Below are positions 8,247 through 22,254 of a DNA stretch of 37,569 nucleotides, piece after piece; positions within the stretch are counted from its first letter, which is position 1, and each line of letters starts with the position of its first letter. The translations under genes were made by a program, and so were the position numbers. A model generated the notes under the pieces. The model worked only from the letters and a program-made list of their open reading frames with translations. It made no database searches and was not told the DNA's origin. Origin of the DNA: Prevotellaceae bacterium (GTDB lineage Bacteria; Bacteroidota; Bacteroidia; Bacteroidales; UBA932); assembly GCA_031274595.1 (NCBI GenBank), contig JAISPX010000160.1:1-37569 (forward strand). Direction: 5' to 3'.

Positions 8247-8338
8247 ATGTGGGGAAACAAAAACGAAGCATATGGAGAAACAAAAACGACGCATAAGGGG
8301 GAACAAAAGCGACGCATAAGTGAGCAGAAACATGCCTC
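8247..8338. repeat. Tandem array, exact 23-bp period (3 clear units plus 1 degenerate)
   Basis: ATGTGGGGAAACAAAAACGAAGC / ATATGGAGAAACAAAAACGACGC / ATAAGGGGGAACAAAAGCGACGC / ATAAGTGAGCAGAAACATGCCTC. Confidence 0.85.
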
Positions 8339-20307: not shown

Positions 20308-20380
20308 GATTCAGTAGCTCAGCCGGTAGAGCACATCCCTTTTAAGGATGGGGTCCTGGGTTCGAATCCCAGCTGGATCA
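20308..20380 (+). tRNA. tRNA-Lys (anticodon UUU), CCA not encoded
   Basis: GATTCAG...CTGGATCA acceptor pairing, CATCC-CTTTTAA-GGATG anticodon arm, TGGG-TTCGAAT-CCCA T arm. Confidence 0.97.
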
Positions 20381-20384
20381 CTCG

Positions 20385-20421: not shown

Positions 20422-20550
20422 ATTCTGTATATCATTCCCCACTCATTAAGAAACGAATGGAAGCCGTAAAATACAAAAAAACTGTTAGGGTTATATGCTT
20501 ATATTCCACAACTTTACATTTCAATTCTCTAATTTATTTTTTTCTTTCCC

Positions 20551-20704
20551 AATAGCGGTAAATTTCTACACCGATAGCCGTAAATTTCTTCTTCGGTAGA
20601 AATTTTTTTCTACGCCGATAGAAATAAATTTTCTCTTCGATAGAAATTTTTTTCTTCCCTTATAAAAATTTTGCTCCGTAAGGGTAGAAATTTATCGGTT
20701 ACAC
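20551..20704. repeat. Degenerate tandem array, strict 22-bp period, about 7 units
   Basis: AATAGCGGTAAATTTCTACACC / GATAGCCGTAAATTTCTTCTTC / GGTAGAAATTTTTTTCTACGCC / GATAGAAATAAATTTTCTCTTC / GATAGAAATTTTTTTCTTCCCT / TATAAAAATTTTGCTCCGTAAG / GGTAGAAATTTATCGGTTACAC. Confidence 0.9.
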
Positions 20705-20740
20705 TTGGCGTTTATTTTTTTGCAACTTTATAATCTGTAT

Positions 20741-20826
20741 TAAAACCGCTGTTAAGAAATGGTTAATGATACAAGGGCTACAAATCACTTTCAACTTTAC
20801 AAATTTTATGAACTTTATAACTAAAA
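20741..20826 (+). repeat. Dispersed repeat R1, copy D (near full-length)
   Basis: TAAAACCGCTGTTAAGAAATGGTTAATGATACAAGGGCTACAAATCACTTTCAACTTTACAAATTTTATGAACTTTATAACTAAAA; matches 32372-32458. Confidence 0.85.
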
Positions 20827-20937
20827 TCGTACAAATCAACAAAAGAAATAATGCGCATCGCAACCGACTGTCATCAACTTTTACAAAAATATTGATAATT
20901 TTTTTAATTAATTTATCATCAGATATTATTTGTTTCG

Positions 20938-20945
20938 TATCTTTG
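20938..20945 (+). promoter_or_regulatory. -7 element (TATCTTTG) upstream of serS
   Basis: TAnnTTTG match about 40 bp before the ATG; no convincing -33 at standard spacing. Confidence 0.45.
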
Positions 20946-20985: not shown

Positions 20986-22254
20986 ATGTTAACTATTAAA
21001 CAATTACGTGATAATCCTTCATACATTATAGAGAGGCTGAATGTTAAAGGATTTGCTGCCGAAAATATTATCGCCGAAATTTTTAATCTCGACGATAGCA
21101 GAAAAGCAATTCAAACAAAACTGGATGCAAATCTTGCCGAGCAAAACAAAATTGCGAAAGAAATAGGTATATTGTTTAAGCAAGGCGCACAAACAGAAGC
21201 CGAAGCCGCAAAGCAACGCAGTGTTGATCTTAAAGAAATATCAAAAAAGATGCAGGACGAAATGGCTGAAACGGAAAAACTTCTTTCAGAAAAGATAGTT
21301 TTGTTGCCTAATATTCCTCATACATCCGTCCCCGCCGGCAAAACGGCAGACGATAATGTAGAAGTGCGGCGCGGCGGCATAGTTCCCGAACTGCACAACG
21401 CTTTGCCTCATTGGGAACTCGCAAAAAAATACGATATTATCGATTTTGAACTCGGCGTGAAACTCACAGGAGCAGGATTTCCCGTATATAAAGGCAAAGG
21501 AGCGCGTTTGCAGCGAGCTTTGATTTCGATGTTTCTTGATATAAATACGGCGGCAGGCTATCTGGAAATTGAACCGCCAATTGTTGTAAACGAAGATTCG
21601 GGTTTCGGCACAGGTCAGTTGCCCGACAAAGAAGGACAGATGTATCATGCCGAACTTGACAACTTTTATCTGATACCGACAGCCGAAGTTCCCGTAACAA
21701 ATATTTACAGAGATGTGATTCTGAATAAATCGGATTTTCCGATAAAAATGACAGCATACACTCCATGTTTTCGGCGCGAAGCAGGTTCATACGGAAAAGA
21801 TGTTCGCGGACTTAACCGACTGCATCAATTTGATAAAGTTGAAATAGTAGAACTTTCGCTGCCCGAATATTCTTACGAAGCGTTAGACAGAATGGTTAAT
21901 CACGTTGAAGGTATAATCAAGCAACTTGAATTGCCATACAGAATTATTCGTCTTTGCGGCGGAGATATGAGTTTTACGTCAGCATTGACTTATGATTTTG
22001 AAGTTTATTCGACAGCGCAAAATCGTTGGCTCGAAGTGAGTTCGGTGTCAAATTTTGAATCGTTTCAGGCTAATCGTTTGAAATTGCGTTACCGCGATGA
22101 CAATAAAAAAACACAACTGGCGCACACGCTCAACGGAAGCGCACTGGCATTGCCGCGAATTGTTGCAGCATTGATAGAAAACAATCAAACAGAACATGAA
22201 ATATTAATTCCCAAACTGTTGCAGAAATATACAGAATTTCAAAAAATATTCTAA
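20986..22254 (+). CDS. serS: Seryl-tRNA synthetase
   Basis: MLTIKQLRDNP N-terminus, coiled-coil arm, YLIPTAEVPVTNIYRD, TPCFRREAGSYGKDVRGLNRLHQFDKVE, NGSALALPRIVAALIENNQ. Confidence 0.97.
   Translation: MLTIKQLRDNPSYIIERLNVKGFAAENIIAEIFNLDDSRKAIQTKLDANLAEQNKIAKEIGILFKQGAQTEAEAAKQRSVDLKEISKKMQDEMAETEKLLSEKIVLLPNIPHTSVPAGKTADDNVEVRRGGIVPELHNALPHWELAKKYDIIDFELGVKLTGAGFPVYKGKGARLQRALISMFLDINTAAGYLEIEPPIVVNEDSGFGTGQLPDKEGQMYHAELDNFYLIPTAEVPVTNIYRDVILNKSDFPIKMTAYTPCFRREAGSYGKDVRGLNRLHQFDKVEIVELSLPEYSYEALDRMVNHVEGIIKQLELPYRIIRLCGGDMSFTSALTYDFEVYSTAQNRWLEVSSVSNFESFQANRLKLRYRDDNKKTQLAHTLNGSALALPRIVAALIENNQTEHEILIPKLLQKYTEFQKIF

Follow-up and report, generated by a model that had tools for sequence, protein, structure and literature searches.

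A 22-nt tandem array between tRNA-Lys and serS is a putative relic of an HU-HIG gene leader in a Prevotellaceae bacterium

The window, the whole stretch of DNA analyzed here, comprises 37,569 nucleotides of a Prevotellaceae genome. It carries a tandem array between a tRNA-Lys gene with the anticodon TTT (20308–20381, plus strand; ARAGORN and Rfam tRNA) and serS (20986–22254, plus strand), an ORF with the Pfam domains tRNA-synt_2b and Seryl_tRNA_N. A −7 box of serS itself, TATCTTTG, was read by eye downstream of the array (20938–20945). A second dispersed repeat of the CTTTACAAATTTTATGAACTTTATAAC type adjoins the array at 20782–20828 and has many copies in the same genome, in the congeners G004 and G009 and in others. 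A separate period-23 tandem repeat with three copies of GGGGAAACAAAAACGACGCATAA is located at 8251–8320 between genes for an AMP-binding enzyme and a phage-integrase-family protein; none of the adjacent ORFs scanned was an HU-HIG gene.

The periodicity of the array is pronounced. Self-identity of the region 20551–20704 was 0.59 at lag 22. Dinucleotide shuffling lowered it to 0.28±0.04, and a value of 0.59 was not attained in any of 5000 shuffles over the whole range of lags from 10 to 59. The tandem array described in the earlier note is therefore real and, in the very autocorrelation proposed there as a check, lies far above chance. High values were also obtained at lags 44 (0.65) and 66 (0.56). 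TRF called a period of 44 at 20563–20655 (2.1 copies, 85% matches) and a period of 22 at 20585–20657. The alternating 3′ ends of the units noticed before correspond to this 44-nt super-period. Unit segmentation, the R1 matches (20606–20690 and 20540–20605) and the lag-22 test placed seven consecutive, gap-free 22-nt units at 20537–20690 on the minus strand, which is the orientation of the HU leader introduced below. Thus, the seven indel-free units were correctly recognized, but in a frame shifted by about 14 nt. Self-complementarity had been ascribed to several units. GTAGAAATTTTTTTCTAC is indeed a perfect palindrome (20596–20613), but it occurs only once in the window, and a search for the exact pattern across the genus gave matches in the same genome only. 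The units are contiguous 22-mers rather than near-identical repeats separated by unique spacers, so the array is not a CRISPR array, as the note had stated. In an Rfam scan of the window, tRNA alone exceeded the gathering score and the array matched no known RNA family.

The array forms the core of an intergenic repeat of about 240 bp with three close copies elsewhere in the MAG-like assembly (205 contigs, 87% complete). Its approximate limits, deduced from these copies, are 20482–20745 on the minus strand; the ends vary among copies. The copy at C81 is 91% identical to the window element over 246 bp, the copy at C101 80–81% over 338 bp, and the copy at C144 86–95% over pieces. Exactly 44 nt, corresponding to two units, are missing from the C101 and C144 copies. 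Copy alignment located one arm of a AACCCTAACAG hairpin at 20482–20492 (minus strand). This hairpin is complete in C101, where it may serve as a terminator, and imperfect in C144. On the other side of the array, 20691–20745 (minus strand) is the counterpart of the promoter site of the HU gene; no intact TAnnTTTG box was seen there by eye. The genes around the copies are unrelated from copy to copy. The window copy is surrounded by a class I tRNA synthetase gene (valS-like), tRNA-Lys and serS, and the C81 copy by a biotin ligase gene and a gene whose translation reads as adenosylhomocysteinase. A formyltransferase-family gene lies near the C101 copy and a glycine dehydrogenase gene at the C144 copy.

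Contig C146 of the same genome (G000) holds a fourth, more distant array with 87% identity over 157 bp. It is flanked upstream by a Bacteroidetes promoter box and downstream by the start codon of a gene for a 125-aa HU-HIG protein (PF18291, E 6e-29; TIGR01201 HU_rel above cut-off). A 22-nt array was found at the same place in all five congeners, counting the genome itself, that possess an HU-HIG ortholog of more than 80% identity, and the promoter box TATATTTG lies just upstream of it in each of the five. Promoter boxes and some of the unit readings were made by eye. Conserved position and upstream box suggest that the array at this home locus is most likely the 5′ untranslated leader of the HU-HIG gene and would be transcribed with it.

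The window copy has retained more than the array. Local alignment to the HU locus revealed a remnant of the leader 3′ end and the start-codon region at 20504–20526 on the minus strand (HU, ATGAAATAC; window, GTGGAATAT), with a GTG at 20507–20509. The sequence across the start codon is kept in the window copy and its sisters (HU, AATTAAAATGTAAAATTATGAAATA; window, AATTGAAATGTAAAGTTGTGGAATA). This homology rests on a short alignment, which counts against a leader origin; its score was reached by 1/500 shuffles for C121, 0/500 for C81, 0/500 for C101 and 2/500 for C144. Judged by the conserved start-codon region, the window feature appears to be a relic of the HU-HIG leader. With this remnant and its 87% match to the HU-leader array, the element belongs to the HU-HIG-associated arrays, a group defined here.

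Dispersed arrays in other genomes show a similar relationship. They are most like the HU leader of their own species in G000, G003 and G008, and mixed in G007. In the dispersed copies of G003, the similarity to the HU locus extends into the promoter region (298 bp at 76%). By eye, the promoter box of dispersed copies looks intact in L190, and small deletions have changed it in others. Read in HU orientation, the array copies L190 and L194 (G003) and L196 (G005) are immediately followed by a strong GC-rich hairpin (GCTCCCGAAATAC...GTATTTCGGGAGCG). These three copies look as if they were short transcription units with their own terminator.

The earlier note had read the array as a selected feature of the gap between tRNA-Lys and serS. 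As a locus-specific reading, this was not borne out. No match to the array model was found at the serS flanks of nine congeners and 80 other relatives, or at the birA flanks of nine congeners. At the birA site of congeners, the next gene also differs, and synteny is broken at both serS and birA in relatives, with no clean empty site as a result. ARAGORN detected no tRNA near serS in the congener loci, and the arrangement at the window locus itself is therefore lineage-specific. The window copy is better described as a dispersed relic of the HU-HIG leader. In contrast, the proposal that spacing is kept while sequence diverges finds support far beyond this locus, as a period of 22–23 nt recurs with unrelated unit sequences at HU-HIG genes across Bacteroidales.

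Leader arrays of unrelated sequence with lag 22 (23 in L206) also precede orthologs from two further genera of the family and from different families of Bacteroidales, exemplified by the units TTTCCTGCGGTGGGAAGAAAAC, TTTCCTGTGCACAGAAAAAAAA and CTGTCCACTCGCATACGTGTGTG. Dispersed array copies are also present in several of these genomes. Genes with a leader array cluster on the tree (12 rows, 3 changes needed compared to a shuffled mean of 10.2); one paralog of this clade, L205, is without array. HU-HIG paralogs belonging to other clades of the genus carry the array directly after the stop codon. This is the case in all testable members of the L168 clade. Among 14 further paralogs, lag 22 was the best downstream lag in most and exceeded shuffles in about a dozen. 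In the L168 clade, some dispersed arrays come after short deleted remnants of HU genes, in which MKY... continues into either the gene end or the array itself. At L284, L285, L279, L280 and L278 (G003 and G005), HU-HIG remnants of this kind (MKYKLTER or MKY) precede a 22-nt array, in several cases with Rhs/YD-core-like reading frames behind it; these loci look like deletion derivatives of an HU-array unit. In one HU-HIG clade, the 3′ arrays of L169 and L177 (G005) and L164 (G001) are followed by an ORF whose start resembles a signal peptide; at L169, this ORF contains an Rhs-core-like motif (GGARMYDSNTGRWFVTDPMAEKYY).

An order-wide sample, drawn to avoid picking examples, comprised 52 HU-HIG loci hand-chosen from the family-match table, namely every listed stand-alone gene outside the genus with no more than about 166 codons and a dozen longer ones. 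All lags from 15 to 40 were considered in the scan. Arrays with lags of 21–23, mostly 22, touch 31 of the 52 loci (p≤0.005, 200 shuffles), 15 of them upstream and 17 downstream just after the stop codon, including one with both. The remaining 21 had no significant array, which counts against a general binding function. The shuffles preserve single-base composition only. A control set of 56 serS genes from relatives guards against this effect, although it represents a single gene; 0/112 flanks had lags of 20–24 and two had other lags. The genomes surveyed are mostly incomplete. HU-HIG/TIGR01201 genes are numerous in some Bacteroidales, one sampled genome having as many as 18 matches. Distant relatives on named Bacteroides and Parabacteroides records are mostly without array, again a point against the binding function. 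HU-HIG relatives on named plasmid records likewise had no clear arrays of 22 nt, the weak signals at L389 (lag 20) and L393 (lag 23) being unconvincing. In the literature searched, we found no paper linking HU-HIG genes to tandem arrays, none on the HU-HIG clades themselves, and no targets of HU-HIG/TIGR01201 proteins.

The units tend towards symmetry. Across 54 arrays, the consensus units bear no relation to one another in sequence, but overall they are clearly more palindromic than shuffles of their own letters (mean z 1.9; p≤0.05 in 37%). Some arrays are not palindromic, which counts against a role as operator. Such symmetry could reside in RNA. Untranslated tandem hairpins at the 5′ or 3′ end would then control the HU-HIG mRNA through attenuation, stability or termination, or because the protein binds the message that encodes it. 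The leader position behind a promoter box fits this possibility, as does folding of the HU leaders of G000 (z −3.9) and L200 (z −6.3) better than shuffles. Several 3′ arrays resemble repeated terminators, and the terminator-like hairpin after the C101 copy points in the same direction. However, the L160 leader folds no better than shuffles, and folding of the window array is about equally favorable on either strand. Within the genus, covariation at the level of the unit hairpin did not significantly exceed permutation (z 0.8), and the inter-unit frame gave no consistent covariation signal within the genus. Mismatched dyad pairs showed no excess of G-U over A-C beyond the prediction from composition (0.87 vs 0.99 upstream, 1.17 vs 1.12 downstream), which favors symmetry of DNA over pairing of RNA. 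We consider control by RNA unlikely. The repeated RNA hairpin considered in the earlier note thus lost ground, and its other branch, phasing of DNA over two helical turns, is the better one, at the level of inference.

The distribution of the copies recalls a non-autonomous mobile element of the MITE type, comparable to BrickBuilt, that carries a minisatellite and came to lie ahead of the HU gene by chance, without any role there. Several lineage-specific intergenic copies with common flanks and truncated ends, and the variable unit number at C101 and C144, would be expected of such an element. It should possess terminal inverted repeats, yet within 20440–20840 all three inverted repeats found place one arm within the array, and in none of them do the two ends of the element pair; by eye, no common terminal repeat was seen at the ends of the G003 copies. 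Moreover, chance insertion leaves the arrays of unrelated sequence at HU-HIG loci across the order unexplained. This origin is improbable in our estimation. An ordinary minisatellite generated by slippage in AT-rich intergenic DNA would account for degenerate tandem units and for changes in unit number by multiples of 22, but not for palindromic units or for the same period in unrelated sequences beside one gene family and not beside the control gene serS. The linkage to HU-HIG genes already largely refutes slippage, which we regard as very improbable.

The explanation that we favor, and judge somewhat probable, is that the window array is a decaying dispersed copy of an HU-HIG (PF18291/TIGR01201) leader, and that such arrays are dedicated DNA sites through which putatively bound HU-HIG protein controls the adjacent gene. 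Each of the tandem, mostly palindromic units, one per two helical turns (about 22 bp), would be the site of one dimer, and the spacing would align the HU-HIG dimers on one face of the DNA beside their own gene. The array-bound protein might then control this gene in the manner of an operator or iteron. Copies of the leader would have moved into other intergenic places with loss of the coding sequence, and may now be inert relics or extra binding sites. A simple leader operator cannot be located after the stop codon, as some of the arrays are, and this counts against the explanation. More tentatively, HU-HIG proteins and 22-bp arrays could be widespread, fast-evolving partnerships of protein and site in Bacteroidales. 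Spacing and dyad symmetry would let each protein recognize its own array, the sequence of which changes from one species or paralog to the next. Dispersed copies, the one in the window included, would provide private genomic sites for regulation, partition or marking of self-DNA. An array of constant period and changing sequence at HU-HIG genes is a concrete candidate target, with which HU-HIG function can be tested directly. The puzzling 22–23-nt minisatellites of Bacteroidales also gain a new explanation, including a possible link to BrickBuilt of Porphyromonas gingivalis.

BrickBuilt is the closest published element, compared here by description rather than by sequence. It is a MITE/minisatellite with tandem units of about 23 nt without spacers, a leader and a tail, and has 19 intergenic copies of varying unit number (PMC4596501). 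The smallest copy, BrickBuilt_14, lies beside PGN_0872, a gene for a PF00216 DNA-binding protein (PMC4596501, Table 1), which is consistent with the association of arrays and HU genes; the authors draw no connection between the repeats and HU-type genes. Like BrickBuilt, the window element occurs in Bacteroidales in multiple intergenic copies with tandem units and shared flanks. Unlike BrickBuilt, it has a period of 22, terminal inverted repeats were not found, and its home copy is located in an HU-HIG leader. We do not claim that it is a MITE. Precedents for the putative binding come from canonical HU. In P. gingivalis, a capsule operon carrying a 77-bp inverted repeat at the 5′ end is transcribed less when the HU protein PG0121 is lost, and E. 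coli HU autoregulates hupA via a promoter cruciform, as discussed in the same study (PMC3969353). In both cases, as presumed here, an HU-family protein meets DNA with dyad symmetry near the genes that it controls. There, a single inverted repeat is involved, whereas the putative target of HU-HIG is a 22-nt array. Plasmid iteron and partition-site arrays consist of tandem sites spaced by about two helical turns beside the gene of their own binding protein. Their sequence differs between relatives while the architecture stays, and the proteins that bind them, such as Rep or those of the ParR type, are not relatives of HU. HU-HIG arrays likewise have a spacing of about two turns, adjoin the gene of a DNA-binding protein and change in sequence with a constant architecture. 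If the putative binding takes place, an HU-HIG array would work most like an iteron or partition-site array beside the gene of its binding protein.
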